A stretch of 64,000 bases of DNA from Nocardia brasiliensis (GTDB lineage Bacteria > Actinomycetota > Actinomycetes > Mycobacteriales > Mycobacteriaceae). Within the stretch, counting starts at the first letter, position 1. Each line of letters starts with the position of its first letter. The notes under the pieces are model-generated. The model had not been told where the DNA came from, made no database searches, and worked only from the letters and a program-made list of their open reading frames with translations. The stretch spans positions 5,952,001-6,016,000 of the forward strand of contig NZ_CP046171.1 of the NCBI RefSeq assembly GCF_011801125.1, read 5' to 3'. The position numbers and the translations under genes are program-made. Positions 31,789 through 52,064 of this stretch are shown in pieces.

Positions 31789-32039
31789 GCCCGATCCGCG
31801 TGACCGGGCACCAGGACATCGAGCCAGGCATCGAGCACCGGCTCGGCGGCCAGGGTGGCGAAGTCCGCCTCCGTCGCGCCGTTGGCCCGCCACTTCTCCA
31901 CCAGCGACATCAACCGCACCGAATCCAGGCCCGCGTCGGTGAGATCGCCGTCCGCCGGCACCTCGTGCGGTGCGACACCCAGCGCCGCCGCGATATCGGC
32001 GATCACATCCTGACGGCCGATGGTAACCGGCTCGGTCAT
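31785..32039 (-). CDS. Free-standing aryl carrier protein
   Basis: An 84-residue carrier with the phosphopantetheine site in DAGLDSVRLM, resembling the C-terminal ArCP of EntB (the GLDS-VR form is typical of aryl carriers). It would carry 2,3-dihydroxybenzoate loaded by the AMP ligase and deliver it to the first condensation domain of the NRPS. The ATG has a GGAGGAG site. In EntB and DhbB the carrier is fused to isochorismatase. Here the two are separate genes 31 bp apart. The stop overlaps the hydroxylase start. Confidence 0.9.
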   Translation of the reverse strand: MTEPVTIGRQDVIADIAAALGVAPHEVPADGDLTDAGLDSVRLMSLVEKWRANGATEADFATLAAEPVLDAWLDVLVPGHADRA

Positions 32040-32070
32040 AACAACTCCTCCAACTTGTCCAGAGCCCGGG

Positions 32071-32718
32071 TCAGGCCGCATTCGATTGCCGCAGCGCGTA
32101 ATCGAGCGCTTCGGTGGTGGTCACCGCGCCACAGCGGCGGGCGACGTAGTCCATGGCCATCACATGCTCGTCACGGCCGAAGTCGGCGGTCGCGTCCAGC
32201 ACCAGGAACGGCTGGATGTCGTTCATGAACGCCTCGGCGGCGCTGAGCATGCAGCCCATGTGCGCGTAGACGCCGGTGATGATCAGCTGGTCGCGGTTGT
32301 AGTGGTTCAGCAACTCGCGCAGATCGGTGCGCTGGAACGCGGAGTAGCGCCACTTGGTGACCTGGATATCGGAGGGGCCGGGCGCCAGTTCGGCGACGAC
32401 GTCGGCCTCGGGGCCCTCGCGCAGGCCGCTGCCCCAGAAATCGGCGAGAATGCCGCGCCGCGAAGGGTGCTGGTCACCGGGCTGCATGGTGAACACGACC
32501 GGAACACCGGCCGCGGCGCACTGCCCGCGCAGGCGTTTGATGTTCGCGACGGCGGTCGAGATCGGCTCCTGGTCGAGCTGGTAGGCGTCGATGAAGTACC
32601 GCTGCATGTCGTGGATCAGCAGCGCGGCGCGCGAGGGATCCAGCGACCATGGCACTCGATTGCTGGCGACGTCTTCGCGCGCCGGAATCGAATACGGTGC
32701 GATCGGCGGGATGGCCAA
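32071..32718 (-). CDS. Isochorismatase (2,3-dihydro-2,3-DHB synthase)
   Basis: A 215-residue isochorismatase that hydrolyses the vinyl ether of isochorismate, giving 2,3-dihydro-2,3-dihydroxybenzoate and pyruvate. LIHDMQRYF carries the catalytic Asp, VTKWRYSAF the Lys, and [12 protein letters not shown] the loop where EntB-type enzymes have Gly in place of the hydrolase Cys. It is the N-terminal half of EntB without the carrier, which is encoded separately next door. It is second in the dhbA operon and needs isochorismate from a synthase not present in the window. Confidence 0.94.
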
Positions 32719-32751: not shown

Positions 32752-33558
32752 TCATGCGTCGAACGTCGCGCCGCCATCCACCCGCAGATCGTGCATGGTG
32801 ATATGCCGGGCGCGCGGTGAGGTCAGGAAGTAGATGCCCTCGGCGACATCCTCGGGCTGGGCGACGCGGCGCAGCGGGATGCCGAGCCGGAACCGCTCCG
32901 GGTCGCCGGCGAGCACCTGATCGCGTGCGGCGGCGGGCAATTCGGTCGCGGCGTGGTCCCACATGCCGCGCAGCATGGCGGTGTCGGTGGAACCGGGCGA
33001 CACCATGTTCACCCGCACGCCCGCGGCGGCCACCTCGAGTCCGAGCGCCATCGCGAACGCGGCCGCAGCGGCCTTGGACGCGCTGTAGGCGGCCATGCCG
33101 ACCCTAGGGGTGTTGGCGGCGTTGGAGGTGACGACGACGATCGAGCCGCCGCCACGCTCGGCGAGCAGCGCGGCGGCCCGGCGGGTGACGTTCATCGTGC
33201 CGGTGGCGTTCACGGCAAGGCACCGATCCCATTGGTCCCCGGTCAATTCCGCGATCGCGCCGGTCTCGAGCACGCCCGCGGCGTGCACCACCGACTCGAG
33301 CGGGCCGATCCGCGCGACGGCGGCGAAGGCGCGGTCGACGGACGCGGCATCGGTCACGTCGACCTGCTCGGCGTGCGCGTCGACCCCGTTCCGGCAGGCC
33401 CGGATCTCGTCCGCCGTGCGGTGCACCGCGGGATCGTGGTCCCATAGCACCACGGGCGCCGCGGACCTGGCCGCGAAAATCTGCGCCGCGGCCCGCCCGA
33501 TGCCACCAGCAGCACCGGTGATGATCACACCGCCACCACTTTTACCATCTCGAGACAT
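32752..33558 (-). CDS. dhbA: 2,3-dihydro-2,3-dihydroxybenzoate dehydrogenase
   Basis: A 268-residue short-chain dehydrogenase that oxidises 2,3-dihydro-DHB to 2,3-DHB with NAD+. ITGAAGGIGRAAA is the Rossmann loop, VVTSNAAN contains the catalytic Ser region and YSASK the Tyr-x-x-x-Lys pair. MVSPGSTDTAM fits the EntA/DhbA subgroup, and context with isochorismatase and DHB ligase makes the assignment firm. The ATG touches the iron box, so the ribosome site would lie inside the operator (AAGG). It is the first gene of the minus-strand operon. Confidence 0.93.
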   Translation of the reverse strand: MSRDGKSGGGVIITGAAGGIGRAAAQIFAARSAAPVVLWDHDPAVHRTADEIRACRNGVDAHAEQVDVTDAASVDRAFAAVARIGPLESVVHAAGVLETGAIAELTGDQWDRCLAVNATGTMNVTRRAAALLAERGGGSIVVVTSNAANTPRVGMAAYSASKAAAAAFAMALGLEVAAAGVRVNMVSPGSTDTAMLRGMWDHAATELPAAARDQVLAGDPERFRLGIPLRRVAQPEDVAEGIYFLTSPRARHITMHDLRVDGGATFDA

Positions 33559-33625: not shown

Positions 33626-35275
33626 TTGTCCACGCAATCCGACCTAACCCCTTGGCCGGCAAACGAAGTCGAAACCTATCGGGCCCTGGGCTACTGGTCC
33701 GGAGAAACCTTCGGTGACATGCTCACCAGCCGCGCGGCCGCCACCCCGCAGGCCATCGCGGTGCTCGATGACCACAACCGCTGGACCTACGCCGAGCTCG
33801 AACACCGGGCCAGGTCGCTGGCCTCGGGTTTTCTCGATCTCGGTATCCAGCGCGGCGATCGGGTGCTCGTGCAGCTGCCCAATATCGCCGAGTTCGTCGA
33901 AGTGATCTTCGGCCTGTTCTACGCGGGCGCGCTGCCGGTCTTCTGCCTGCCCGCGCACCGGCAGGCCGAGCTGCTCCCGATCGCGCAGGCGAGCGGAGCG
34001 ATCGCGATGATCACCTGCCATCACCACCAGGGCTTCAATCACGCCACGCTCGGCGCGGTGCTGCGCGACAGCGCACCCGAGCTGCGGCATCTGATCCTGG
34101 TGCCGGAACACCGCAAGCCCGCCGTGCCGCCGGGCGGCACCCACGGGCTCGACGACCTGCGCGCCACGCCGCGGCAGCTGCCCGAGGTCGACCCGTCCGG
34201 CGTCGCGTTCCTGCAGCTGTCCGGCGGCAGCACCGGCACGCCGAAGCTCATCCCGCGCACCCACGACGACTACCTGTACAGCGTGCGGCGCAGCGTCGAG
34301 ATCTGCGGACTCGACGAGACCAGCGTCTACCTGGCGGTGCTGCCGGTCGCGCACAACTTCCCGATGAGCTCGCCCGGCATCCTCGGCGTGCTGTACGCGG
34401 GCGGCACCGTGGCGATGGCCATCGAGCCCTCCCCCACCACCGCGTTCGGCGCGATCCAGCGTTTCGGCGTGACCATCACCGGCCTGGTGCCGCCGCTGGC
34501 CCGGCTGTGGGTCGAACGCGCGGAAGCCGGGACCGACTACGACATTTCGAGCCTGCGGGTGCTGCTGGTCGGCGGCGCTCGCTGCCCCGACGAGTTGGCG
34601 CGGCGGATCGGACCCGCGCTCGGGGTCACCCTGCAGCAGGTGTTCGGCATGGCCGAGGGACTGGTCTGCTACACCCGTCTCGACGATCCCGAGGACGTGG
34701 TCCTGGCCACCCAGGGCCGCCCGATGTCGGACCACGACCGGATCGCCGTGGTCGACGAGCAGGGTGAGCCGGTGCCGCCCGGCACCGACGGCCTGCTGAT
34801 CACCAAGGGCCCGTACACGATTCGCGGGTACTACCGCAATCCCGAGGCCAACGCGTCGTCGTTCACCGAGGACGGCTGGTACCGCACCGGTGACGTGGTC
34901 AACCTGCGCCCGGACGGCAACCTGGTGGTGAAGGGCAGGCTGGGCGATCGGGTCAACCGCGGCGGCGAGAAGATCTCGGCCGAGGAGATCGAGGCACATC
35001 TGCTGGACCATCCGTTGATTCGGGACGCGATCGTCGTTTCGGTGCCGGACGAGCGGCTCGGCGAACGCAGTTGCGTGTTCGTGCTGGCGACCGATCCGGC
35101 GACCCCGCCCGCGCTCGGCCAGATTCGTCAGTTCGTGCGCGAGCGCGGCGTGGCGACCTGGAAGATCCCGGACCTGCTCGAGGTGGTCGAGAGCTTCCCG
35201 GAGACCGGGGTCGGCAAGATCAGTCGCCGGTCCCTGCGTGCCGCGCTCACCGCGCAGGCGGCGCGGTCCGCCTGA
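33626..35275 (+). CDS. dhbE: 2,3-dihydroxybenzoate-AMP ligase
   Basis: A 549-residue aryl-acid adenylating enzyme that forms DHB-AMP and loads the aryl carrier. LSGGSTGTPKLIPRTH is the P-loop, GYYRNPE and RTGDVV are later core motifs and the catalytic Lys sits in GVGKISR. The substrate pocket segment HNFPMSSPG keeps the Asn and the Ser at the place where salicylate enzymes often have Cys, which fits DHB. TTG start with AAGGAG seven bases upstream. It is divergent from dhbA across a shared iron box. Confidence 0.95.
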   Translation: MSTQSDLTPWPANEVETYRALGYWSGETFGDMLTSRAAATPQAIAVLDDHNRWTYAELEHRARSLASGFLDLGIQRGDRVLVQLPNIAEFVEVIFGLFYAGALPVFCLPAHRQAELLPIAQASGAIAMITCHHHQGFNHATLGAVLRDSAPELRHLILVPEHRKPAVPPGGTHGLDDLRATPRQLPEVDPSGVAFLQLSGGSTGTPKLIPRTHDDYLYSVRRSVEICGLDETSVYLAVLPVAHNFPMSSPGILGVLYAGGTVAMAIEPSPTTAFGAIQRFGVTITGLVPPLARLWVERAEAGTDYDISSLRVLLVGGARCPDELARRIGPALGVTLQQVFGMAEGLVCYTRLDDPEDVVLATQGRPMSDHDRIAVVDEQGEPVPPGTDGLLITKGPYTIRGYYRNPEANASSFTEDGWYRTGDVVNLRPDGNLVVKGRLGDRVNRGGEKISAEEIEAHLLDHPLIRDAIVVSVPDERLGERSCVFVLATDPATPPALGQIRQFVRERGVATWKIPDLLEVVESFPETGVGKISRRSLRAALTAQAARSA

Positions 35276-35327: not shown

Positions 35328-36584
35328 CTAACGGGATTCGGCGGCCTGTTGCTCGGCCGCCGAGGTGGCCAGCCACACCGGACGCGAGAGCGCGCACAGC
35401 AGCAGTCCGAAAACCGCCGCACCGCAGCCATAGACGAGCAGGGCGGTGTCGGGCGCGAAGTACTGCCCGAGCACGCCCGCGACCAGCGAACCGACGGCGG
35501 TGCCGGAAACCGCCTGCACCAGCCACAGACTCGATACCCGGCCGCGCAGCTCGTCAGGTGTGTGCTGCTGGAGCACCGCGAAGCGGAAGGTGTCGTTCAC
35601 CGCGCGCCCCAGGCCGAAGCCGGCCAGGCCGAGCACCGCGAAAACGACTGTGCCGCCGAGCCCGACGACGATCAACGCGACCGGCAGCACCACCACCGAG
35701 GCGAGCAACGCCCGTCCGTTGCGGTGTACCCGCCCGGTCCAGCCGCTGGTGAACAGCCCGACGAGCGCGCCAGCCGCCGGCGCGCCGTACAGCCAGCCGA
35801 GCACGGCCGGGCCCGCACCGAGCACCGTGTCCGCGTACGCGGGCAACAGCACCAGCGGACCACTGACCAGCATCACGGCCAGCCCGACGAGCAGTGTGCC
35901 GCGCACGATCTGATGGCCGAGCGCGAAGCGCAGGCCGGTGCGCAGCGCCCGCAGCGGTGGCTCGTGTACCGAACCGCTCGGCGGGTGCGCGCCCACCTCT
36001 TGGAACAGCGTCACGGTGAGCGCCGTGGCGGCAGCGGCGACGAAATAGGTCACCGAAACCCCACTGGCGGCGATGATCACGCCCGCAATACCGGGCGTGA
36101 CCACGGTGCCCAGCTCCGTGGTGAGCGTCATCAGCGCGCCCGCCGCGGCCAGCCGCTGCCTGCCGACCAGCGCCGGGGTCAGCGCCATCAGCGCCGAACT
36201 GCTCACCCCGCCCGCCACCCCGTCCAGCGCCGCGGCGCCGTAGATGACCCACAGCAGCGGATGATCCAGCAGCGAGTTCGCGCCGAGCACGAGGAAGCCG
36301 AGCCCGGCCAGCGACCGCGCCAGCTGGATGGTGCGCCTGCGATCGTGCCGGTCGGCCAGCACTCCGCCGGACAGGCTGCCCACGAACATCGCGACCGCGG
36401 TGACCACCGAGACGCCCGCGACGTGCAGGCTCGACCCGGTGAGCTGATAGACCTGCACCGGCAGGGCCACCATCAGCAACCCGATGCCGAGCAGCGAGAT
36501 CAGCCGGGCCGCGAAGACATAGCGAAACGCCCGGCTGTCCCGCAACGGCGAGACATCGATGACGAGGCGACGCAGCACGCTCAT
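35328..36584 (-). CDS. MFS transporter, EntS-like siderophore exporter
   Basis: A 418-residue major facilitator with about 12 hydrophobic segments. The start SPLRDSRAFRYVFAARLISL matches EntS-type exporters. GVLADRHDRRRT is the conserved loop 2-3 motif. EntS exports enterobactin, and here the substrate should be the product of the adjacent NRPS. The ATG overlaps the stop of the binding-protein gene (ATGA), and that gene overlaps the NRPS stop, so synthesis, uptake and export are translationally linked. Confidence 0.92.
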   Translation of the reverse strand: MSVLRRLVIDVSPLRDSRAFRYVFAARLISLLGIGLLMVALPVQVYQLTGSSLHVAGVSVVTAVAMFVGSLSGGVLADRHDRRRTIQLARSLAGLGFLVLGANSLLDHPLLWVIYGAAALDGVAGGVSSSALMALTPALVGRQRLAAAGALMTLTTELGTVVTPGIAGVIIAASGVSVTYFVAAAATALTVTLFQEVGAHPPSGSVHEPPLRALRTGLRFALGHQIVRGTLLVGLAVMLVSGPLVLLPAYADTVLGAGPAVLGWLYGAPAAGALVGLFTSGWTGRVHRNGRALLASVVVLPVALIVVGLGGTVVFAVLGLAGFGLGRAVNDTFRFAVLQQHTPDELRGRVSSLWLVQAVSGTAVGSLVAGVLGQYFAPDTALLVYGCGAAVFGLLLCALSRPVWLATSAAEQQAAESR

Positions 36585-37588
36585 CCGAACGCTTTCGCGA
36601 TGCTGTCGAGCGTGGTCAACGCGCCGTGGTAGTCCGGGCGGTAGCTGGTCGCGGGCAGCTCGTAGACCTTGCCGTCACGGAACGCGGGCAGCCGCGCGTA
36701 CAGCGGGTTCTGACCGAGTTCGGCCGCGCTCGGCCCGCCGACCGGGATGACCACGGCCACCGGCGCGTCGGCGACCTTGTCCAGCAGCTCGAGGCTGACC
36801 TGGAAGGAGTCACCCGAGCCGTACAGCGCCGGGTTGCCCGCCTTGGTCAGCACATCGTCGGCGACGAAACCCAATTCGCCCAGCTGGCTGGGCAGTGCCG
36901 CGGTCTGCGGCACCACGAACGGCTCCTTGTTCGCGACCGAGAGCAGGTAGACCACCTTGCCGGTCGGCACCTTGCTCGACGCCTTCACCCGGGCGGCCTT
37001 GTCCTGGTAGGCGCTCAGCAGCGCGGGCACCCGGTCGGCGCGGCCGGACGCGTCCGCGACCATCCGCAGCTGCTCCTGCCAGTCGGTCACCTTCGTCGGG
37101 ACCAGCACGGTCGGGGCGATCGCGGTGAGCTTGTCGAACAGCTCCCCCGCCTGCACCGCGGTGATGCCCTGCCCGCCGCCGATGATCAGGTCCGGGTTCG
37201 CCTCGGCGACGGCCTCGATGTTCAGCTCCGCACCGGCCGGTAATTGCTTGGTGCCCTGGGCTTTCGCCTTGTCCGCCCAGTGCGGTGGGAAGCCGCCGTC
37301 GAGGTTGGTGATGCCGATGACCCTGGTGTCGGTGGCCACCACCGGCGCGTCCAGCGCGTAGAGGTAGTCGGCCAGGCTGCCGCTGAGCACCACGATGCGC
37401 TTCGCCTCGTGCGGCACGGCGACCGCGCCGCGGTCGGTGGTGATCGTCCTGGTCTGCTCGCTGTCCGCGACGGTGTCCGCCGTGGACGAGCAGCCGACCA
37501 CGAGGCCGAGCGCCATGGTCAGTCCGGCGAGCAGGGCCCCTGCCCGCCGCATGCGGCCGGTGCGGCCGGACGTTCGGGTCGACATCAT
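36581..37588 (-). CDS. Siderophore-binding lipoprotein (FepB/FecB-like)
   Basis: A 335-residue periplasmic-binding-type protein. ATG 37588 overlaps the NRPS stop (ATGA) and has AGGAG upstream. The lipobox is LVVGCSS, so it is lipidated. [17 protein letters not shown] and [12 protein letters not shown] are typical of the helical-backbone ferric siderophore binding proteins. It should capture the ferric form of the local siderophore for an ABC importer. No permease or ATPase gene of this type lies in the window, so those parts must be elsewhere. Confidence 0.92.
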
Positions 37589-40500
37589 CGGTCTCCTTGT
37601 GTTGAACGGACTTTCTTCCCCAACTCCTGCTCGAGCAGCGGGGTGAGCTGTGCCCAGCCCGCCGTGGTGACGAGCCCGGCATGGTCGAAGGGCAGATGGT
37701 GCACCACCGGATCGAGCCCGAGCCCGCGCCAGCCCTCTGCCAGCGCCCGGCCGGGCGCCGCGCAGGCACCGCTCGGTCGATCGGCGGTGAACAGGGTCAG
37801 CGGGCCGGAGTAGTCCGGAACCGTGGACGCCGCGAGCAATCGCACGCACTCGGCGAATCCGGCACGCAACGCGGCCCGCAGTTCTGGGTCCGCGGCGCCG
37901 AGCCGCGGTGCGAGCACGGCCAGTAGTTCGTCGGCCTCCGCGTCGGCCTCGGGCGCGCCACCGGCCCGACGGCCGAGCGGCGCGCTATCGATCAACCCCG
38001 CGAAGGCGATCTCCTCGCCTGCCGCGCTGAGCTGAGCGGCCATGGCGTGCACGACATTTCCGCCGAACGAGTAGCCGAGCAGGTGATACGGCCCGCTCGG
38101 CTGGTGCGCGCGCACGGTCTCGACGTATTGCGCGGCGAGCTCATCGATCGTCGAGGCGGTCGACGGCGCTCCGCTCAGCGTGGGCAACTGCAAGCCGAGC
38201 ACCGCGCGCCCCGCGGACAGCCGCGTCGCCAACGGCAGGAACTGCCAAGCGAATCCGCCTGCCGGATGCACGCAGAACAGCGGAGCCTCGGCACCGCCTT
38301 CGCGCAGCGCGAGCACGTGCTCGCGGCCGAACACCGGTGCTTGCGGCTCAGGCGCGACGCCCGACGTCTCGTCCAGATAGGCGGCCAGCTCGGCCACGGT
38401 CGGCCGCGCGGTCAGCGCGGCGAGCGAAATGGTCACGCCGAGTGCGCTGTCCAGCGCGCCGAGCAGGCGCATCGCGCGCAGCGAGTCGCCGCCCAGGTCG
38501 AAGAAGCTGTCCTCGATGTCCACCTCGGCGAGCTCGAGCACCTGCTCGAACACCGCGCACACCGCGCGCTCGCGCGCCGTGCGCGGCGCCCGCCGCACTG
38601 TGCGGTGAGCCGGTTGCGGCAGTGCCGCCCGGTCCAGCTTTCCGTTCGGAGTCAACGGGATCGCGTCGATCACCACGATCTGCGCGGGCACCAGCGCCGC
38701 AGGCACCTTCGCCCGCACCTCGGGACGCAGGTCCCGCGGCGGGCAGTCCGGGTCTAGAACCACGTAGCCGAACAGCCGTGCGGTGCCCGCGGCGTCGGCG
38801 CGCACCGTCGCGGCGGCGCGGCGGACACCGGGCAGCGCGGCCAGGGCGGTCTCCACCTCGGCCAGCTCGATGCGCACGCCGCGGATCTTGACCTGGTGAT
38901 CGACCCGGCCGAGGTATTCCAGTTCACCATCGGCCCTGCGGCGCACCAGATCTCCGGTCCGGTACATCCGGCCGCCATCGGGCGCGAACGGATCCGCGAC
39001 GAACGTGCCCGCGGTCAGACCCGACCGATCTCGATAGCCGATCGCGATGCCGTCGCCGGACAGGTAGAGCTCGCCCTGCGCGCCGACCGGCACCTCGGCC
39101 AGACCCGAATCGAGCACCCGTACTTTCGCATTGCGCACCGGCCGCCCCAAACAGGGTGTGGCGCTGCCGGATACCGGGGAGCCGAGCGCGTTGATGGTGA
39201 ATTCGGTCGGCCCGTAGAGGTCGTAACCGGTGGCGACGGGATGCTCACGCAGCAGAGTCCACAGATCCGGCGGCACCGCCTCGCCGCCGAGCAGCACGAG
39301 GGCGGGCACGTGCGCCCCGGTGAGCAGGCCCGCCGCGAGCAATTCCCTTGCGTAGGAGGGAGTCACGTTGACCGCGTCGATGCCGACGTCCTGATAGTGC
39401 GCGACCAGCGCGGTGGGCTCCAGCCGAGCCTGTTCGTCGATGACGTGCACCTCGTGCCCGGCCAGCAGCCAGAACAGCTCCTCCCACGACATGTCGAACG
39501 AGAACGAGACGGTGTGCGCCACACGCAGCCTGCCCCGGTTCGCCCTGCGGTCGGTCGGACCGAAGATCTCGTCGAGGTGGTTGTGGTACATCGTGGTCAG
39601 GCCGCGATGCCCGATCATCACGCCCTTCGGGCGGCCGGTCGAACCCGAGGTGTAGATGACGTAGGCGGGTTGATCGGCATGACTCGGGCCGGCCACCGCG
39701 GGCGCGGCCACCACGGGCGGCGCCACCGCGCCGTCGAGCACGCTCGCCACCTCGGGCCGATCGATCAGCAGTTGCACCCGCGGCCCGCCGTCGCCCACGA
39801 TCACGCTTTCCCGATGGACACCGGTGCTGATCAAACCAGACGCGGCGCTGTCGGCGAGCAGCTCACGCAACCGCGCCGGTGGATGCGTCAGATCCAGTGG
39901 CAGATAGGCCGCCCCGGTCCGCATGACCGCGAAGATCGCCACCACGTGATCGGCGATGCGCGGCAGCGCGAGGGCGACCACGTCCGAGACCCCGATACCC
40001 TCGCTCGCGAGCAACCGCGCCATCCGGTCGACCCGATCGTCGAGTTCCCGCACGGTCAGTGCGACCGGCCCGCATACCAGCGCACAGGCGTCCGGGGTCG
40101 CCGCCGCACGTTCGCGCAGCAGCGCGTCGACGCTGCCGCCGGGCTCGCCGGGCAGCGGCACGTGCACCCGCTCCGGGGTGAACTCCGGCGAAGCGGCAAC
40201 CGGCACAGCGGTATCCGCGACGACGCCGCGCCCCGCCGCGGTCTCCGGCGCGGCGAGCTGTTCGAGGATCGCGACCAATCGCGCGAGCATGTCCTCGGCC
40301 AGTCCGTCCGGGATCAGATCCGTCCGGTGCTCGAGCGTGATCCGCAGCGGATCGGCCCCGACGCCGGGATCGACATCCAGCGTCAACGCGTAGTGCGTGC
40401 CGTCGACCGCTTCCCGGCCCACCACGCCGGTGCGGGCAAAGACATCCGCGGCGCCGCTCTCGTCGCGCGGCAGGTTGCGGAAGACGTAGAGCGTGTCGAA

Positions 40501-43500
40501 CAGCGTCGGATACCCGGCCGCCCGCTGGATGCGGCCGAGGCCGAGCTGCTGATGGGCGAGCAGCCCGCCCTGCTCCCGCAGCATCCGGCGCAGCAGTTCC
40601 AGCAGCGACTCCCCCGGGCGCACCCGCACGCGCACCGGAATCGTGTTGAGCACCAGGCCGATCATCCGTTCCGCGCCGGGCACCTCGGGCGAGCGCGCGG
40701 ACACGGTCGAGCCGAACACCACGTCGTCGAGCCCGGTGCTCGCGCGCAACGTCAAGCCCCACGCGGTGGACACCACCGTCGACAAGGTCACTTGGCCGTG
40801 AACGGCCAGCGCACGCAGCGCGGCGGAGGTCCGCGCGTCGAGTTCGATCCGGGTCCGGCCGGGCAGCGGGGACCGGTCCGTCGCGCCGGTACCGATCAGG
40901 GTCGGCTGACGCAGCTCGGACAGGTATGTCCGCCAAGCTTTTTCGGCGGCGCCGTGGTCCAAGCCGGCCAACCAGCGCAGTTGGTCGCGGAAGTCCGCGG
41001 CGGGCTCGAGCGTCGCGTCGAGTTCGGCGGCGACGCCTGCTTCGGCCCGCTCGTAAAGGGTGAACAGTTCGGTGAACAGCAGGGCCAGCGACCAGCCATC
41101 GATCAGCAGGTGATGCAGCGTGAAGACGGCGCGGCTGGTGCCGTCCGGCAACCGCACCAGCACCACCCGGATCAGCGGAGGCGCGCCGAAATCGAACGGC
41201 GTGCGGTACTCCTCGTCCGCCAGCGCCGCCACCGCGGCCGCGGCGTCCTCGGCCGCGCTCAGATCCACTTCCCGGCAAGGGGTTTCCCAGGTGCCCGGAA
41301 TGAACTGCACGGGTGCGGCGAAGCCCGCGTTGGTGAATCCCGCGCGCAGATTGGCGTGCCTGCGCAGCACCGTGTCCAGCGCTACCCGCAGCAGGTCGGC
41401 GCGCGCCGGCCGGGCGGCCTCGAACACGAAGCTCACCTGCATGTGATACGCGTCGGAGCCGGCGGCGCGGTCGACCACGGACTGGAAGTACATGCCCTCC
41501 TGCAGCGGACCGAGCGGCAGCACCTCCTGCCACGCCGGGCACAGCGCGTCCAGTCGGGAGCGCTGTTCGGCGTCCACGGTGACGAGGTCAGCGGTGGCGG
41601 CCAACGGTGCTGTGGTGTCCTGGCGTGTCGCGGCAGCGGCCAGCTCGCCGAGGGTCGCGTGTTCGAAGACGTCCGCGACGGTGAGCACCAGGCCGTGCCG
41701 CCGGGCCCCGGTGACCAGCCGCACCGAGGAGATGCTGTCGCCGCCGAGCGCGAAGAAGGCGTCGTCCGGGCCCGGCATCGCGATGCCCAGCACCTCGGCG
41801 GCCAACCCGCACAGCGTTTGTTCGGCGGCCGTGCGCGGCGCGCGGCGCGCGGTGTCGGCGCGTGTCGGTTCGGGCAGCGCGGCCCGATCCACCTTGCCGT
41901 TGAGGGTCAGCGGCAATGCGTCGAGCACCGCGATCGCCTGCGGCACCATGTATTCGGGCAGCAGCGCCGCGACCGCGGCACGCACCGCGGCCGGGTCGAG
42001 CGTCCCGCCCGGCGCGGCGACGACGTAACCGAACAGCCTGCCGGTGCCCGCGCTGTCCGCACGAACGGTGGCCGCAGCTCTGGCGACCCCCGGCACCGCG
42101 CGCAACGCGGTCTCGACATCGCCGAGCTCGATCCGGAAACCGCGCACCTTCACCTGATCGTCGCCGCGACGCAGGTACTCCAGCCGTCCGGCCCGCTGCC
42201 GGACCACGTCTCCGGTGCGGTACAGCCGCAGGCCCGGTCGCTGCGGATCCGGCACGAAGCGCGCGGCGGTCAGTCCGGGCTTGCCGAGATAGCCGCGAAC
42301 TACCTGGGCCCCACCGAGATACAGCTCGCCCGCGACACCAGGTGGCACCGGGCGCAGGTGCTCGTCCAGCACCCGGGTGTGCACATCGGTCCACGGCGCG
42401 CCGATGGTGACCTGATCACCGGGCCGCAAATCGCTTGCCGTCGCCCACACGGTGGCCTCGGTGGGCCCGTACACGTTGCGCACCGATCGGCAACTGGCGA
42501 CCAGCGCCACCGCGAGGTCCGCGGGCAGCGCTTCACCGCCGACCAGCGCGCGCACGGCGGCGAGCCGTGCGGCGTCCTCGTGTTCGACCAGCACCCGCCA
42601 CAGCGAGGGCGTCGCCTGCACGACGGTCGCGCCGCTGTCGGCGATCAAGGCGTGCAACGCGTCCGGATCACGCACGGTGGCCCGGTCGGCCAGCACCACG
42701 GTCGCACCGACGGTCAACGGCAGCAGCAATTCCAGAACGGCGATGTCGAACGAGACCGTCGTCACGGCGACGATCCGGTCGCCACGACCGAGCCAGCCCT
42801 CGCCGCCAACGGTTTCGGCGAACGCGGCGAGATTGGCCGCGCTGACCATGACGCCTTTGGGTTTACCGGTCGAGCCGGAGGTGTGGATGACGTAGGCCAG
42901 GCGCTGATCGGCCGGGCGCGGCTGCGGCAGGGCCGGTGGGTTCGGTTGCGCCGCGGCATCGGTCAGCACCGCGGGCGGACCGCCCGCGGGCAGCCGATCG
43001 GCGAGCTCGGAGCTGGTCAGCACGCACACCGGTGCGGCGTCGGCGAGCATGTACGCCAGCCGATCCGCCGGGTAGTCCACATCGAGCGGCAGGTAGGCGG
43101 CGCCGAGGCGCAGCACGGCGAGCAGACCGGCGACCAGATCCGTCGAGCGGGCCAGCGCGACACCGACCACCTGCTCCGGCCCCGCACCGGCCGCCAGCAG
43201 CCGGGTGGCGAGATCGTCTGCCCGGCTGGCGAGTTCGGCATAGGTGACCGTCTCCGCGCCACAGCGCAGGGCGATCGCGTCGGGGGCATGGCGCACCTGC
43301 TCGGCGAAGCGCACCGCGACACCGGGCGGCGTGGTCGCGCGACGCGCCGGATCACGCGCCGGATCCGGTGCGGCGAGGGCGGTTTCGAAGATACCCGCCG
43401 CAGGCTCGCGCACGACGCGGTCGAGCACGGCGATCAGTCCGTCGACGAGCGCGGCCGCGGTGGCCGGATCGAAGAGGTCGGCGTCGACCACCAGGCGCAG

Positions 43501-46500
43501 GTTCGCCGTGTCCGGCGTCGCGGCATCGGCCAGCCACACCGCCGCGTCGAAGCGCGCGGCGGTGGTGACCGGCGGCACCGGCTCGCCCGCGAGCCCACCG
43601 AGGGTCGGTGCGGCCGTGGCCGGTTCGTAGGCGACCATGGTCTGGAAGAGCGGGTGCCTGGCCAGCGAACGAGGCGGGGCGACGGCGTCGACGACCCGCT
43701 CGAACGGCACGTCCTGGTGTGCCAGTGCGGCCAGCGCGGCGGCCCGCACCCGCCCGAGCAGCTCCACGAAGCTCGGACGTCCGGTCAGATCGCAACGGAT
43801 GACCAGCGTGTTGACGAAATACCCTACGGTGTCGCCATATTCGCCCGCGTCGTCGTCCAGCGCGCTGTCGCGATGGGACACGGTGCTGCCGAGCGGGATG
43901 TCGCGACCGGCGCCGAAGGCCGACCAGGTGGTGGCCACCGCCGCCTGCACCACCATCAACGGGCTGACGCCGTAGGCGGTGCACAGCTCGGTGATCGCCG
44001 CGCGCAGCCCGGCGGGCAGTGCCCTGAGCACCGTGTGGCCGCGGTAGGCGGCCCGCGCCGGGCGCGGCCGATCGAACGGCAGCTCCAGCTCGGCGGGCAG
44101 ACCCGCGAGCGTTTCGCGCCAGTACGTCAATTGCTCGGCGTAGGCATCCTCCTGCTGCCTGCGGCGTTCGCGCGCCGCGTACTCGCGGTAGTCGGCGCGC
44201 ACCGGACCCCGTTGCGGTGCTTCACCTTTCACCCGCGCTTGGTACGCGATGTCCAGATCGTCGAACAGCGGACGCAGCGAGGTGGCGTCGAAGGCGATGT
44301 GGTGCACCACGATGACCAGGACGTGGTCCGCCGGGGCGACCTCGAGCAGCGTGGCCCGCGCCGGCGCGGCGGCGGTGATGTCCACCGGCCGCGCGAGGCA
44401 GGACGCGATGGCCGCGTCGAGGCCCGCCGCACCGACCGCGTGCCGATCCAGCCCTGCCGCCGCATCGGCCGAAAGCAGCCGCAGCGTGGCCGATCCGGCC
44501 GCGTCCTGCGGATAGGTGGTGCGCAGCACCGGATGTCGATCCAGCACGTCGCGCCAGGCGGCGGCGAGGGCGGCGTAGTCGAGCGCACCGCGCAGCCGCA
44601 CGACCACGGGCACGTCATAGGTGGTGGACGGGCCCTCCAGCCGGTGCAGGAACCACAGGCGCTCCTGGGCGGGTGACAACGGCGCCGCGGTACCCGCGCG
44701 GTCGAGCACGGCGGGGATGAACTCCGCTGGGGCCGTTGCCACTTCGCCGGTCTCGGCTGATCCTTCGACGCGCTCGGCTACCTCGCGCCCGAAACGCCGG
44801 GGATCGATCTGTGCTCGCGTGGCGAGAGTACGCGCCGTCGGCGCGTCGAACACGTCGGTGATCGCGACCCGCACACCGAGCCTGCGCAGCCTGCCCACCA
44901 GCCGCATGGCCGTCAGCGAATGCCCGCCCAGCGCGAAGAAGTCGTCGTCGGGGCCGATCGAATCGAGCTCCAGCACACCGGCCGCGCCCGCGCGAATCGC
45001 CGCGAGCACCGCCGCGTCGGCGGTGTCGGGAGCGGCGAGCGCCCGCGGCCGCTCCGGCGTGCGAGCCCGCGGCGCAGGCGCGACCCAGCCGGACATGTCG
45101 AGCAGCGCGCCGGCGCGGACGTCCTCGTCCTCGACCACCGCGCGCAGCACCCGCGTGATCCGATCGATGATCCGGCAGACCGTCGCGTCCGGGACAGCGG
45201 CCCGGTTGTGGTAGACCACCAGCTCCAACCGGTCGCCGGGCGGCGCGAGCAGCGTGACCGGGTAGTGCGTGAGCCCGTGGTTGTGGAAGCCCGCGACCCG
45301 CAGCTCGTGCGATTCGGGCTGGTGCGCACCGGAATTCGGGAAGTTCTCGAAAACGACCAGGGTGTTGAACAGCTGGCCGAGCCCGGCGGCGCGCTCGATC
45401 TCGGCCAGGCTCGCCTGCTCGAACTCCTGCATGGCGAACTGCGTTTCCTGCAGCGCGGCGAACAGGTCGAGCAGCGCGCGCTCGGGCGTGATCGCGCACC
45501 GCACCGGGATGGTGTTGGTGAACAGCCCGACCATCGTCTCGACGCCGGGCAACTGGGCGGGCCGCCCGGACACGGTCGCGCCGAAGACCACATCGGCCTG
45601 CTCGGTGAGTTCGGCGAGCACGATCGCCCATGCGCCCTGCACCAGGGTGTTCGGCGTCAGCCCGCGACGGCGGCCGAGCGCGACGAGGTCGGCGGACTGC
45701 GCCGCCGACAGCGGCACCGGCACCTGCCGGAACTCCGGCGTGCCGGTCGATGTCGTGGGGATCAGGCTGGGCGCGGCCAGCCCGGCCAGCCGGTCGGCCC
45801 ACGCGGCGCGCACCGCGTCCCGGTCCTGCTGGGCGATCCACGCCAGGTAGTCGCGGTACGCGGCGGGCGTGGGCAGTTCGGCGCCGTGATAGAGCGCGAG
45901 CAGCTCGCGCAGCACGATCGGCGTCGACCAGCCGTCGGTGAGCAGGTGGTGCGCGTTGAGCACCAGCCGGTGTCGCGCGTCCGGCAGATGAATCAGCAAG
46001 GCGCGCAACAGCGGTGACCGGTCGACCACGAAATGATGTGCGGCGGCCTCGGTTTCGAGCCGGTCGGCCGCGGCAACCGCGGCGCGCACGGGCAGCGCCG
46101 ACAGGTCGGCGTAGCGCCACGGCAGCCGCGGCGTCCGGGGAATGGCCTGCACCGGCCGGTCCAGCGCGGTGTAGTGGAACGCGGCGCCCAGGTTGGGATG
46201 CCGGGCGAGCACGGCGTCGAAGGCGCTCGCCAGCCGGGTTTCGTCGAGCGGGCCGGTGAGGTCGATCCGCGCGGTCAAGGTGTACACGTCGGCGGCGCCG
46301 TCGCGAATCGCGTGGAACAGCAGGCCCTCTTGCAGCGGCGAGAGCGGCAGCAGCGCGGCCAGCGGACCGTGCACGGCCTCCAGCTCGTCGATCCCGTCCT
46401 GCGTGGCCGAGACCTCGGGACAGTCCGATGGCGTCAGCCCGCCCTCGAACAGCACCGCGTGCGCGGCGAACGCCTCCAGGGCGAGTTCCCAATGGTGCTG

Positions 46501-49500
46501 CAGCGCGGTCACGGTGGCGGCGTCGAGCACCTCGCCCGCCGCCGTCCATTCCACGGCGAGCCGGGGCGCGCCCTGCTCGTGCACGAAGGCGTTGAGCGCG
46601 AGCACCTCCGAAAGGGCTTTACTCGCGGGCTCGCACACCGCGAACGGATCCTCGTGCGGCAGTTGCCAATCGCCGCCCGCCGACGCGGCGAACCGGCCGA
46701 GATAGTTGAGCAGCAGCTCCGGAGCGGGCCGGGCCGCGAGATCGGGTGCGGACGTCGGATCCAGGTGCCGCAGCACGCCGTAGCCGACACCGCCGTCGGG
46801 AACAGCGCGCTTGGCCTCCTTCACCGCACGCAGCAACCGGCCCGCCGCGGCGCCACCGGCGAGCGCCTCGGTTAGCCCGGCCGCGGTGTCGATGCCCTCG
46901 GCCGGAGCCCAGACCGGGTATTCGCTGGTGAACCAGCCCACGGTGCCCGCGAAGTCGGTATCCGCCGCCAGCGCGTCCCGCCCGTGTCCCTCGACCGTGA
47001 TCGGCCTGCCCGCCTCCAACGCCTCGCCGCGGCTGTACCGCCACGAGTTCACCGCGAGGAGCAGGGCGGCGAGCAGCACGTCGTCGGCGCCGGCCCGATA
47101 CGCCGCGGGCAGGGTGGTGAGCACTGCCTCGGTGAGCGTCGCGGACGCGAATGTCCTGGTGCGCACCGCGCTTCGCGCGTGATCGCGGGCCGGGTCGAGT
47201 GCCCGAGCACCCAGCGGCTCGGTCGCCTGGCCGAGCGCCGAGCGCCAGTGTTCGGCCTGCGCCGCGTAGCTGCCTTCGGCACCGGCTGCGGCGAGCATCG
47301 TGGCATGACGGCGCCACGAGCTGCCCTTCGACACCAGGTGAGCAGGCTGACCGTCGCGCGCCGCCCGGCATGCCGCATGGAGTTCGGGTAGCAGCACGCG
47401 CCAGGAAACCCCGTCGACCACAAGGTGATTGGCCACCACGAGCAGTCGATCCGGTGCGCCCGCCGGGGTCCTGGCCAGGGCGAGGGCCAAGCACCGGCCC
47501 GCACGCGGGCTCAGCCGATCCGCGAGATCCTGTGCCAGGGCGGGGATCCGGGCGGCGTCCTCGACGACCAGCTCGGTCAGCAGGTCCGCGGCCCGGACCG
47601 ATCCGGGGACGCCGATGGTGAGCGTCGGCGGGGTCGCCCGCTGGTCGAGCACCGCGCGCAGCGCGTCGTGCCGATCGAGTATTACCTGTAGTCCGGTGCG
47701 CAGGTGCTCGAGTTCCACGTTCTCGTGCAGCCCGAGCACGGTCCACTGGGCGTACCCGGCGATCGCCGCCTCGTCCTGGTTCGCGGCGAGTAGCGCGCGC
47801 ACGATCGGCGGCAGCGGGACGACGCCGACGGGCTCGTCCTCGGCCACCGTGTGCTCGGTGTCGACGAGACGGTCGGCGGTCGCGGCGATGGTGCCCAGAT
47901 CGCCCTGGGCCAGTATCGCTTTCGGCTGGACGAGCAGGCCGTGCGCGCGCAGCCTGCTGCTGACACTGATCGCGGTGATGCTGTCGCCGCCGAGCCCGAA
48001 GAATTCGTCGTCGATACTCACCGCGGGCCTGCCGAGCACCTCGGCGACCACGGCGCACACTGCCCGCTCCCGGTCGGTGCGCGGGGTACGCCCACTCGAA
48101 ACCAGTTGCGGCGCGGGCAGGGCCGCGCGATCCAGCTTGCCGTTCACCGTGGTCGGCAGGGCCTCGAGCACCACGAGCACGGCGGGAACCAGATGGTCGG
48201 GAACGGTTTTCGCGAGCCGATGGCGGATCTCGTCGACGCCGTCGAGCCGCTGCCCGGACGCGGGCACCAGATAGCCGATCAGCTGTGCCGAACCCGCGGT
48301 GCTGCGGATCACCGCCGCCGCGGCGGCCACACCGGGCACCGTGGCGAGAATCGCCTCGACCTCGCCCAGCTCGACCCGGTGACCGCGGATCTTCACCTGA
48401 TTGTCGCCTCGGCCCAGGAATTCGTAGCCGTGGCCGGCCCGCCACCTGGCGCGGTCGCCGCTGCGATACATCCGCTCGCCGGGCGCGCCGAACGGATCGG
48501 CGACGAACCGCTCCGCCGTCACCAACTGACGGCCGAGGTAGCCACGCGCCAATTGCGGTCCGGCAAGGTACAACTCGCCGATCTCGCCGTCAGGGACCGG
48601 CTGGAGGGCGCTGTCGAGCAGGTAGGCGCGTGTGCCGGCCAGCGGGCCGCCCAGGTGCGGGATCGACCCGGTCACCGGCGTGCTCAGCGCGTCGACGGTG
48701 GCCTCGGTGGGGCCGTACATGTTTCGCGCGAACACCCCGGAGGCGACGATGGTCTCCCAGAGCGCGGGCGAGGCCGCCTCGCCGCCGAAGAGCAACAGCT
48801 GCGGGCGATGTCGCACACCGAGCATGCCGTTGTCGATCAGCGCCGCGGCCATCGACGGCGTGGTGTCGACCACGTCGATCCGGTCGGCGGCGAACGCGGC
48901 CACCTGTGCCGCGGCGTCGCGCTGCACCTCGGTGTCGTAGAGGTGTACGCGATGCCCGCACAGCAGCCACAGCAGCTGATCGAGCGCGGCGTCGAAGGCG
49001 AAGGAGGCGGTGTGGGCGGTGTGTAATTGCCTGCCGCCCACCTGATCCGCCGCCTCGGCGTAGATGGTCGAGCGGTGGTGGTGCAGCAGATGCGCCGCGC
49101 CGCCGGAGCGGACCAGGACGCCCTTGGGCCGCCCGGTGGAGCCGGAGGTGTAGACCACATAGGCCAGATGCTCGGGATCGCGCGGCGCCGCCAGTTCCGC
49201 CGCGGCAAGCGGTCCGTCCGCTTCGCTCTCGATCAGATCTCGAATGGCGCGGTCCGACAACCGGATCGGGGTCGGGCGGCCGTCGCCTGCGAGCACCTCG
49301 GCCAGGGCGTCGGCCGCGAGTACCTGCGCCGGGCGGGCGTCGTCGACGATATCGCGCAGCCGTTCGATCGGATGCTCGGGATCAAGCACCAGGTGTGCTG
49401 CGCCCGCCTGCTGCACGGCGAGCATCGCCACCACGATCTCGGTGGTTCGCGGCAGCGCGAGACCGACGATGTCGTCCGGACCGACGCCCCTGCCCCGCAG

Positions 49501-51018
49501 GTAGCGAGCCAGCCGATGTACCTGTCTACCGAGTTCCGCCGCGCTGAGCCGGGTTTCGCCGCCGACCAGGACGGTGCGCTCCGGGTGCGCCGCGAGCATG
49601 CGATCGAATGCCGTGGACAGGTCTTCCGGTGTACCGGGCAGCGCCGCGCCCGCCCGCTCGGCGAGTATCCGCGCCGCGGCCGGGTAGGGCGTGACGCGCC
49701 CGACCGCGCGATCTTGCCCGTCGGTGAGCCCGTCGATCATCCGGACCAGCCCGGCCATCCGCCGCCGCACCGTGTCCGCGTCGAGCGAGCGCGCGTCGAC
49801 CTCGAAGCCGAGCTGGATCCGCCCGCCCGACAGCGGCGTCACGGTGAGCCCCAGGTCCTCGGGCGGGCCACCGGCCACATTCCGCAAAGTGCCGACGGCA
49901 CCGGCGAAGTCGAGGGCGACGTCGAACGCCTTGAGGTTGATGCCGATGCCGTGCAGCAGCGCGCCGGTCTGCGCGGCGCCGAACTCGCGCGCCAGGTTCT
50001 CGCCGCGGTAGCGCTGATGGGCGCGCAGCCCGCGCAGGGCCTCGGCGACCCGCCTGCTCAACGCGCCGATGCGGTCGTGGCCGGACACGGCCAGCCGCAG
50101 CGGCAGCACGTTGACCGCCATGGACGGGGTGGTCAGGGCGGTGCGCCCGACCCGGGCCATCACCGGAAGCGCGATCACCACGTCGGTCTCGCCGAGCAGC
50201 CGGTGCACGAATCCCGCGTAGCAGCCGACCAATACGTCCGCCCAGGTGGTGCCGGTCGCCTCGGCCACCGCACCGATCGCGGCCATGGCATCGGCGTCCA
50301 GCACGGCGCGCGCCTGATGCGTCAGCTCCGCGGGACCGTCCGGCCGGCCGCCCCGCCCGTCCAGCGACGGCAGCGGGGTGAGCAGATCGCGCCAGTACGC
50401 GCGGTCCTTTTCGAACTCGGGGCCCGCCAGATACGCGGCGTCCTCGGCGACCAGCGTCGCCATCGCGCCCCAGCGCACCGGCGCGACGGTGGTACCGCGC
50501 ACCAGCGCGGTGTAGTGCGCGGCGACCCGGCGCGACACCAGCGCCGCACTGTAGCCGTCGATGATCAGGTGGTGGTACAGCTGGATACACCACACCTCGG
50601 TGTCCGACAGGCGCAACAGGGTGTAGTTGAACAGTTGCCGGTCGACCATCCCCCGGCACGCCCGCGCGGCCCGCACCCGCTCCGCCTCGACCGCCAGATG
50701 CGCGGCGGCCGTCGGGTCCGCCTCCCCGCGCAGGTCGACGACAGGGCGCAGCTGCGCGGGGGCATTGGTGATCCGTTGCCGCGGCCCGTCCGGTCCCTCG
50801 CTGAAACGCAAACGCATGGTGTCGGATTCGGCGACGGTGCGGCGGATCGCGGTGTCAAGCAGATCGAGATCGATGGGCTCCGGTCCGGCGATCTCGAGCA
50901 CCTCGCCGACCAGATAGCCGAGCGTGTCGGGATCGAGGCGTTGGGCGTTCCAGATCCCGAGTTGCGCTCCGGTCAAAGCAAGTTCAGCGTGCCCGTCCAC
51001 CGCCGGGAGATCCGTCAC
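37585..51018 (-). CDS. Nonribosomal peptide synthetase of a heterobactin-like siderophore
   Basis: A 4477-residue assembly line. By eye the order is C1 (1-455, HHLIIDG), A1 (465-965), PCP1 (Ser 1013), E (1066-1520), C2 (1527-1985, HHLLTDG), PCP2 (Ser 2034), C3 (2105-2555, HHIAFDA), A2 (2565-3045), PCP3 (Ser 3095), C4 (3145-3600, HHLLIDG), A3 (3628-4135), PCP4 (Ser 4179) and TE (4225-4477, Ser 4317, His 4446). Pocket residues read DADDLGMVDK for A1 (acidic, suggests Arg/Orn/Lys), DILQLGVVWK for A2 (glycine) and DMENLGLINK for A3 (N5-hydroxyornithine). With DHB as starter this predicts DHB-D-cationic-Gly-hydroxyornithine. PCP2 has no adenylation domain. GTG start behind GAGGAT. No MbtH gene is seen. 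Confidence 0.95.
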
Positions 51019-51110: not shown

Positions 51111-51965
51111 TTATCCGGCGTCGGCCTCGTGGTCCTCGTCGAAGTCCGCGTGCCCGCGCTTCCAGTAGGCCGTGACATCGGAATCACCGGGCTTGGCGCG
51201 CAACACTTCTCGTACCCAGCGACGCAGCGGGCGCACCACGCCCGCCTCGGCGGCGATCCAGGCGTAGATCCGTTCGCCCTCGGGCAGGGCCACCGCGCGG
51301 ACCGCGCGCTCGAGCAGGTCCGAACACCCCGGCGCGACATCGCCCCGGTACAACCAGTGCACCTCGACACCGGCGGGCGCGCTCAGCTCGATCTGCTCCG
51401 ACTCGTCGGTCACCTCGATGAAGGCCCAGCCCGCCGCGTCGGCGGGCAGCGCCTCCAGCCAGCGGGCGATCGCGGGCAGCGCGGTGATGTCCCCCGCCAT
51501 CAGGTACCGGTCGTAGGTGAACGGCACCACCAGTCCGCCGGGCGGACCCGCGATGTACACCCGCGTCCCCGGCGTCGCCGCCGCGGCCCACTCGGCCGCG
51601 TGACCACCGGGATGCAGCGCGAAGTCGATATCGAGCTCACCGGCCGTCGCGTCGTAGCGCCGCACCGTGTACTCGCGTGAAATCGGCAGCGGGCGCGGCC
51701 ATTTCAGGGCCAGATCGACCTGCTCGGGCAGGCGCAGCGTGCCGTCGGGATCGGGGTAGATCAGCCGGACGTGTTCGGTCGGGGCATGACTTTCGAAACC
51801 GGCCAGCTCGGGGCCGCCGAAGGTCAATCGCCGCAGCCCGGACCCGACCATCCTGGCGTCGAGCACGGCCACTTCGCGCAGTCCGATCGGGTACGGCACC
51901 TTGGCGCCGCCCGCCTCGCCGTCGAGCACCTCGGCGATCCGTTCGAGATGAGCCGCCCGGTTCAT
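51111..51965 (-). CDS. Siderophore-interacting FAD reductase (ViuB/YqjH-like)
   Basis: The 284-residue protein belongs to the SIP family, which uses flavin and NAD(P)H to reduce ferric siderophores in the cytosol. The flavin-binding motif is SREYTVRRYD, followed by an FAD-type barrel and a C-terminal SIP domain (WAFIEVTDESEQ, AWIAAEAGVVRPLRRW, AYWKRGHAD). ATG 51965 is preferred over the frame to 52049 and overlaps the stop of an eight-codon frame. A near-consensus iron box lies 100 bp upstream. It is the gene preceding the NRPS. Confidence 0.92.
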   Translation of the reverse strand: MNRAAHLERIAEVLDGEAGGAKVPYPIGLREVAVLDARMVGSGLRRLTFGGPELAGFESHAPTEHVRLIYPDPDGTLRLPEQVDLALKWPRPLPISREYTVRRYDATAGELDIDFALHPGGHAAEWAAAATPGTRVYIAGPPGGLVVPFTYDRYLMAGDITALPAIARWLEALPADAAGWAFIEVTDESEQIELSAPAGVEVHWLYRGDVAPGCSDLLERAVRAVALPEGERIYAWIAAEAGVVRPLRRWVREVLRAKPGDSDVTAYWKRGHADFDEDHEADAG

Positions 51966-52064
51966 GCGAGCGCGCCGATATTCGTCATTGTTGCGACATC
52001 CCTTGCGTTCCATGGAGATCCATCGGCCGATCGGGCCGACGTGCACCACCTCCGGCGCAAAGTC

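Follow-up and report, generated by a model that had tools for sequence, protein, structure and literature searches.

One glycine adenylation domain may serve two carriers in a siderophore synthetase of Nocardia brasiliensis

How is a carrier loaded when the assembly line gives it no adenylation domain, and what does it carry? The question is raised by a nonribosomal peptide synthetase (NRPS) encoded in a 64,000-nucleotide stretch of the Nocardia brasiliensis contig NZ_CP046171.1 (positions 5,952,001 to 6,016,000), which we call the window. Pfam and domain hidden Markov models (HMMs), the latter trained on the window's own domains, gave the full order C1-A1-T1-E-C2-T2-C3-A2-T3-C4-A3-T4-TE, where C stands for condensation, A for adenylation, T for carrier, E for epimerisation and TE for thioesterase domains (Pfam stretches: five condensation-type, three AMP-binding, four PP-binding and one thioesterase). 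This confirmed what a sequence-only reading of the locus had described, i.e.: T2 (Ser2034) directly after C2, followed by C3 (HHIAFDA) and A2, with no A domain for T2. By the domain HMMs C2 spans residues 1533-1965, T2 1985-2066 and C3 2101-2539. The gap between C2 and T2 is therefore too short, at 19 residues, to hold an A domain; a profile search found none there, and a remnant of one was ruled out on the same grounds. The synthetase thus has an A-less C-T unit with an intact carrier serine, a feature of NRPSs that share A domains.

We think it probable that the enzyme is a mixed catecholate-hydroxamate synthetase in which A2 loads both T2 and T3, and that its product is dihydroxybenzoyl (DHB)-D-Arg-Gly-Gly-hydroxyornithine. 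A2 would place glycine on T3 as usual and also backwards, across C3, on T2; C2, of the D-donor type, would join DHB-D-Arg to Gly-T2; C3, of the L-donor type with an HHxxxDA motif, would pass the chain from T2 to Gly-T3; C4 would add hydroxyornithine and TE would release the product. The residues were assigned from ten-residue A-domain codes, extracted with GrsA as the anchor. We take DILQLGVVWK in A2 as a glycine code and DMENLGLINK in A3 as one of the N-hydroxyornithine class; A1 is presumably specific for arginine, by homology to the A1 domains of FscG (fuscachelin) and of heterobactin-type lines.

Distribution of the A-less order

A protein search with the C2-T2 region of the window, of which we examined the best 120 of 1,124 matches, recovered the same order in Nocardia brasiliensis (86% over the C2-T2 region), Nocardia sp. 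NPDC052316, N. iowensis and N. tenerifensis and, outside the genus, in P0053, Pseudonocardia acaciae and P. spinosispora. Scanning named genomes (best 80 of 535 relatives, Rhodococcus being absent among these 80) added complete orders in P. halophobica, K. varians and one metagenome-assembled Kocuria, so that the bearers beyond Nocardia amount to three Pseudonocardia, P0053 and two Kocuria sequences. Within Nocardia, a T2-C3 query matched 7 of 150 genomes at an E-value of 1e-110 or better, and the C2-T2 query matched 48 of 148 at 1e-120; the 30 of these 48 loci that were read comprised seven T2-C3, two C-T-A, ten E-C-A and eleven A-T-C-A layouts. Class- and order-level searches at 1e-150 yielded no extra family member (1 of 394 and 1 of 397 matching, in both cases the window itself), and a family-level search at the same threshold matched 19 of 401, A-containing types included. 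Because other species carry the same order, it is not an artefact of sequencing or assembly; it is a conserved, widespread feature and no strain-specific lesion. Literature searches confined to open-licence papers brought up no product of a synthetase with this order among the matches listed, 15 to 40 per search at most.

The C2-T2 slot is occupied in some relatives. L070 and L071 hold a non-glycine A domain there (code DVAEYGTVDK), and L063-L065 an A domain with the code DAMWLGFIGK. The latter three are short lines (C-A-T-E-C-A-T-TE) which a tree of C1-C2 places with the window-type Nocardia lines, and their back half looks replaced. Two further layouts were seen during the survey. A second common type in Nocardia (L085-L092, L094, L095) reads C-A-T-C-A-T-TE over about 2,400-2,600 residues, and its second C domain is 49-56% identical to the window's C2-T2 query. 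A different E-C-T-C-A-T run occurs in L096, L098, P0124, P0158, P0160, P0166, P0168, P0173 and P0223, mostly from Streptomyces (P0223 from Actinoplanes); several modules of these NRPSs gave just a detected stretch of A domain.

Correspondence with FscG and donor types

The fuscachelin peptide is described as containing arginine and two glycines (PMC13251462), and its synthetase, from Thermobifida fusca, has provided the PCP2-C3 didomain structure 7KVW (PCP, peptidyl carrier protein), in which the PCP2 serine is Ser2514 (PMC8097023). A genome search with the C3 letters of fuscachelin located a genome at 100% identity; its open reading frame (ORF; locus L171) has the second T serine at position 2514, and we therefore took it as FscG. 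It reads C-A-T-E-C-A-T-C-A-T and has the code DILQLGVIWK twice; its T domains carry GGDSI, GGHSL and GGDSV, C2 is of the D-donor type, and C3, with HHIAADE, is of the L-donor type. The same query brought up three further genomes, two with the FscG order and a third in which the position of E was called as a partial C. Each of the seven window domains C1, A1, T1, E, C2, T2 and C3 found its best match in the corresponding FscG domain. Margins over the runner-up were clear for C1, A1, E, C2 and C3 (e.g. scores of 720 vs 142 for C2 and 705 vs 248 for C3) and narrow for T1 (131 vs 122) and T2 (139 vs 136). A2 was about equally close to both FscG glycine A domains (1107 and 1086), and T3 matched FscG T1 best (156), slightly above FscG T3 (152). 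The window enzyme looks like FscG from which the first glycine A domain is missing and to which a hydroxyornithine module and TE have been added. In a tree of A domains FscG A2 and A3 are mutual nearest kin, as would be expected both if they were homogenised twins and if they arose by a late duplication.

Donor-type HMMs were trained on C domains that follow E and on those that follow A-T. In cross-validation 68 of 68 D-donor domains were called correctly and 46 of the 74 others, which had been labelled by context; the L-donor training set was noisy, and scores were used only where large. C2, at +121, was of the D-donor type and C3, at -253 bits, of the L-donor type, while C4 resembled D-donor domains (+86); C1 was only weakly L-like and distant from both trained types. 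In a larger non-redundant set a D-donor-like score was obtained for every one of 153 C domains that follow E (part of this set trained the model). Among C domains following a glycine A-T outside the family, L-donor-like scores prevailed (26 of 33, the remaining seven being D-donor-like), and the C3 of FscG, which receives a glycine-ended chain, is L-donor-like as well. C3 of the window thus fits a chain coming from Gly-T2, and not D-Arg coming from T1.

These scores bear on two roles that had been proposed for T2. In the first, T2 would be skipped and C3 would join DHB-D-Arg from T1 straight to Gly-T3. An A-less module is indeed a textbook candidate for skipping, but the strongly L-donor-like C3 stands against the uniform D-donor character of C domains after E, and the GGHS motif of T2 is retained in 30 of 30 A-less rows (35 rows examined, with some species twice; in L063 and L065, of the C-A-T type, the search pattern picked up no T2 motif). 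We regard skipping as very improbable. Even less credible is T2 as a relay or docking site for a second DHB transfer. Heterobactin A does carry a second DHB on its arginine, but C2 of the window is an ordinary D-donor C domain rather than a starter-like one, the tree places T2 among T2 domains equipped with an amino-acid A domain of their own, and the cluster encodes a separate free carrier protein.

C3 and T3, in the window and in relatives that lost them

It had also been suggested that C3 is silent, given its altered HHxxxDG motif. The comparison does not support this. HHxxxDA or HHxxxDE is found in most full-length copies of the synthetase family and in FscG: the three named Pseudonocardia and P0053 have HHxxxDE, and the N. 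brasiliensis and N. iowensis groups, the window, Kocuria, L070 and L071 have HHxxxDA. Such motifs are reported to go with glycine acceptors, glutamate being beneficial with glycine (PMC8097023). In a non-redundant count outside the window's family, a residue other than glycine followed the motif Asp in 16 of 41 C domains before a glycine A domain vs 95 of 555 C domains preceding other A domains (Fisher p 0.0014, although the sequences are not independent; 56 of the latter group had no readable motif and were omitted). The window and its close relatives have both C3 histidines and the T3 serine. Against L055, L056 and L057, the ratio of nonsynonymous to synonymous substitution rates (dN/dS) in the window was 0.19-0.20 for C3, 0.15-0.18 for C2, 0.10-0.12 for C4, 0.20-0.24 for E, 0.19-0.25 for T2, 0.19-0.24 for T3 and 0.27-0.30 for TE. 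C3 and T3 are under purifying selection in this clade and look intact and constrained, and the selection and the spread of the motif across the family both disfavour a decayed C3 in the window.

Two Nocardia relatives tell a different story, with the catalytic His of C3 changed to give HQ in NPDC052316 and HA in N. tenerifensis. The FscG mutant H2697Q is reported to keep ~1% of its activity (PMC8097023), so the HQ form should be nearly dead. N. tenerifensis (P0009) further has LGGDD for LGGDS in T3, with T2 intact; L059, which is an assembly fragment with the same C3 scores as P0009, repeats both changes. Unlike P0009, L059 is broken between E and C2 into two ORFs that overlap. In pairs with N. 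tenerifensis dN/dS rose to 0.32-0.41 for C3, 0.29-0.35 for C2 and 0.21-0.26 for C4; a relaxation of C3 there is suggestive only, since C2 is raised as well.

The loss has gone further in other lines, which we call collapsed. HtbG, the heterobactin synthetase, was reportedly described by Bosello in 2013 as an 'unprecedented C-PCP-A'. Our comparison used heterobactin-type Rhodococcus lines (the P0122 cluster of 422 members, and L066-L069) in place of the HtbG accession of R. erythropolis PR4 itself. These lines (P0059, P0072, P0096, P0110, P0122 and L066-L069) read C-A-T-E-C-T-(relic)-A-C-A-T, with TE present or absent. The relic lies between T2 and A2: scored with a C3-only HMM, eight such spacers summed to 80-97 bits, the best single stretch giving 36-66 bits, and that of P0122 reached 100 bits, whereas in 240 shuffled spacers no stretch exceeded 10.5 bits. 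In L069 the relic was seen solely with the C3-specific HMM. It covers only the second half of C3, the HHxxxD motif being gone, and evolves faster than its neighbours (dN/dS 0.17-0.29 vs 0.05-0.16) while still constrained. This half-C, under weak purifying selection, is perhaps kept as a platform. With the C3-only HMM no relic was detectable in three Nocardia C-T-A sequences (P0091, P0092 and L061). A predicted structure of T2-relic-A2 from Rhodococcus L066 (mean predicted local distance difference test score, pLDDT, 70; predicted template modelling score, pTM, 0.48) shows by eye elements of the second half of a C domain, where the AlphaFold model of T2-C3-A2 from the window shows a whole one; a fold search with the L066 model matched A domains as well as multidomain proteins of the C-A kind, which we do not count as independent proof.

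The kinship with the heterobactin synthetase that the sequence-only reading had supposed is borne out by the trees, as C2, T2, A2 and C4 of the window are orthologous to those of the heterobactin-type lines, and C1, A1, T1, E, A3 and the last T correspond by tree or position. The condensation-domain phylogeny it had called for resolved C2, C3 and C4 each as a supported clade, Kocuria and L070/L071 included, and the C3 clade takes in the P0122 relic (43% filled, on a long branch). The order is not common to all heterobactin synthetases, however: the Rhodococcus lines lack T3 and a complete C3, whereas the window has T2-C3-A2-T3 in full, not a C-PCP-A second module with no PCP after it. In the T tree (77 columns, hence weak in detail) the carrier retained by the heterobactin-type and C-T-A lines groups with T2, not T3. 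Where the code was read, A2 has the same glycine code in the heterobactin-type lines as in the window, and the collapsed lines keep the glycine code. With T3 lost, T2 kept and this code kept, A2 has only T2 to load in those lines. The 2001 structure of heterobactin A has one glycine, as cited in PMC10972888. From the retention of T2 in collapsed lines and in N. tenerifensis we infer that T2 is the constant carrier and that backward loading of T2 must lie within the abilities of A2. Of the roles proposed for T2, loading by A2 is the one that best explains these relatives.

Loading of T2 by A2 could also serve a shorter route. In a heterobactin-like bypass, C3 and T3 would be unused or partly used, C4 would take DHB-D-Arg-Gly directly from T2, and the product would have one glycine. 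The Rhodococcus and C-T-A layouts leave no other route, and bypass is likely in N. tenerifensis and in NPDC052316 with their altered C3 (and, in the former, T3 Ser to Asp), the residual activity of FscG H2697Q pointing the same way. For the window we find it unlikely, because the C3 histidines and T3 serine persist there and in near relatives and C3 is about as constrained as C2, well below the values seen in the N. tenerifensis pairs. A different amino acid might instead be put on T2 in trans, for instance by A1 (arginine), yielding DHB-D-Arg-X-Gly-hydroxyornithine. The L-donor character of C3 would suit this, as would the non-glycine A domain of L070 and L071 and the second ornithine before glycine in cellulochelin (Orn-Orn-Gly, as described in PMC13251462). 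It is nevertheless improbable: T2 is the only glycine carrier left in collapsed lines, FscG has a glycine A domain at the C2-T2 slot, and within the window the sole AMP-binding match outside the NRPS at an E-value threshold of 1e-40 is the candidate DHB ligase, with no free-standing amino-acid A gene, though many A domains lie elsewhere in the genome and might serve.

Several observations weigh against A2 loading both carriers to write Gly-Gly. The two Nocardia relatives whose C3 is dead by motif indicate that the lineage is viable without Gly-Gly, and the window line might already be bypassing C3 and T3. The AlphaFold model (mean pLDDT 73, pTM 0.51) does not settle whether T2 reaches A2. In a smaller first set, 22 of 22 C domains after DILQ-type A-T were D-donor-like, 16 of them being the family's own C4, a trend that was revised by the larger set. 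Lastly, where SidC A3 is described as loading T3, T4 and T5 (PMC10192304), the extra carriers lie downstream, whereas the A-less T2 of the window lies upstream in the same chain.

Evolution, gene cluster and known systems

We lean, by a small measure, towards a broader scheme in which loading by a single A domain runs both ways, to a carrier on either side and across a complete C domain, thereby writing Gly-Gly; the heterobactin C-PCP-A would have arisen from this two-carrier state as C3 and T3 decayed step by step, and the C2-T2 slot would act as an open socket, filled with various A domains in some lineages and left empty in others. The slot holds differing A domains (glycine in FscG, DVAEYGTVDK in L070/L071 and DAMWLGFIGK in L063-L065), which suggests that it was filled more than once; repeated replacement of the A domain at this position is equally possible. 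In the C2 clade the A-less Kocuria sequences branch first, and the extra A domain of L070/L071 does not group with glycine A domains. L070/L071 might represent the ancestral full state, with the A domain later lost elsewhere, or the A-less lines might never have had an A domain in the slot. If the scheme is true, the HtbG oddity would be one end of a series found in nature: FscG, with two A domains and two glycines; the window, Pseudonocardia and Kocuria, with one A and two glycines; Rhodococcus, with one A, one glycine and a relic; and other Nocardia, with one A, one glycine and no relic. At every step the enzyme would presumably still function while retaining or dropping one particular domain, the kind of change that NRPS engineers seek to reproduce. 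The scheme also predicts that products of lines with intact C3 and T3 are heavier by one glycine (57.02 Da) than those of lines without them; from elemental formulae, [M+H]+ would be 537.24 for cyclised DHB-Arg-Gly-Gly-hydroxyornithine and 480.22 for its one-glycine counterpart, with 136.02 more for a second DHB.

The synthetase lies in a siderophore cluster (Table 1). An MbtH gene was not found in the cluster; the genome has two elsewhere, at 676991 and 7075271. The window also contains a 1,762-residue protein with PA14, GLEYA and RHS repeat matches (57043-62331, - strand), near a weak transposase match at 54889-55560.

Table 1. Synthetase domains and neighbouring siderophore genes, in window coordinates
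Feature	Position	Strand	Basis
L-lysine/L-ornithine monooxygenase family, likely N-hydroxyornithine source	30484..31893	-	Pfam
Free carrier protein, probable aryl carrier	31785..32081	-	
Isochorismatase domain, DHB pathway	32071..32718	-	
Short-chain dehydrogenase, EntA-like, DHB pathway	32752..33558	-	Pfam
AMP-binding enzyme, probable DHB ligase	33626..35275	+	
EntS-type siderophore exporter	35328..36584	-	
Periplasmic-binding-protein-type siderophore receptor	36581..37849	-	Pfam
NRPS, 4477 aa, GTG start	37585..51018	-	translation, Pfam, domain HMMs
TE, GYSFGG	37624..38325	-	Pfam, domain HMM, motif
T4, LGGDSL	38383..38607	-	domain HMM, motif
A3, code DMENLGLINK	38629..40146	-	domain HMM, code
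C4, D-donor-like, HHLLIDG	40243..41541	-	domain HMM, motif, donor score
T3, LGGDSI	41638..41859	-	domain HMM, motif
A2, code DILQLGVVWK, proposed loader of T2 and T3	41884..43332	-	domain HMM, code
C3, L-donor-type condensation domain, HHIAFDA at 2239	43402..44718	-	domain HMM, motif, donor score
T2, carrier without own A, LGGHSL at 2030, Ser2034	44821..45066	-	domain HMM, motif
C2, D-donor-type condensation domain, HHLLTDG	45124..46422	-	domain HMM, motif, donor score
E, epimerisation domain	46549..47856	-	domain HMM, motif; best match FscG E
T1, LGGDSI	47884..48105	-	domain HMM, motif
A1, code DADDLGMVDK	48127..49623	-	domain HMM, code reading
C1, starter-like condensation domain (DHB to residue 1)	49714..51009	-	domain HMM; best match FscG C1
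Siderophore-interacting protein, ferric reductase-like	51111..52049	-	

Set beside known systems, the locus is, on its sequence, a real, conserved and instructive variation on known NRPS logic. Loading of an A-less carrier by an A domain from another module has precedents: besides SidC, a ferrichrome-type synthetase, CmnA-A1 of the capreomycin pathway is described as loading the A-less CmnI (PMC12400406). SidC, CmnA/CmnI and the window share an A-less C-T or T-C unit, whose carrier is loaded by one A domain in the described cases, but CmnI is a separate protein, whereas the A-less unit of the window is in the same chain as A2. According to PMC13251462, the product of the cellulochelin synthetase of Cellulomonas sp. 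Leaf334 is a DHB peptide resembling fuscachelin and containing basic residues, glycine and hydroxyornithine; unlike the window, that system has a first NRPS with three modules, for D-Orn, L-Orn and Gly. FscG shares with the window the frame C-A(Arg)-T-E-C-..-T-C-A(Gly)-T and the types of its C domains, its C3 likewise bears HHxxxD(A/E), and the T motifs of the two are almost identical. It has two glycine A domains, one of them exactly between C2 and T2 where the window has none, and its ORF stops after T3, whereas the window, with one glycine A domain, continues with C4-A3-T4-TE.

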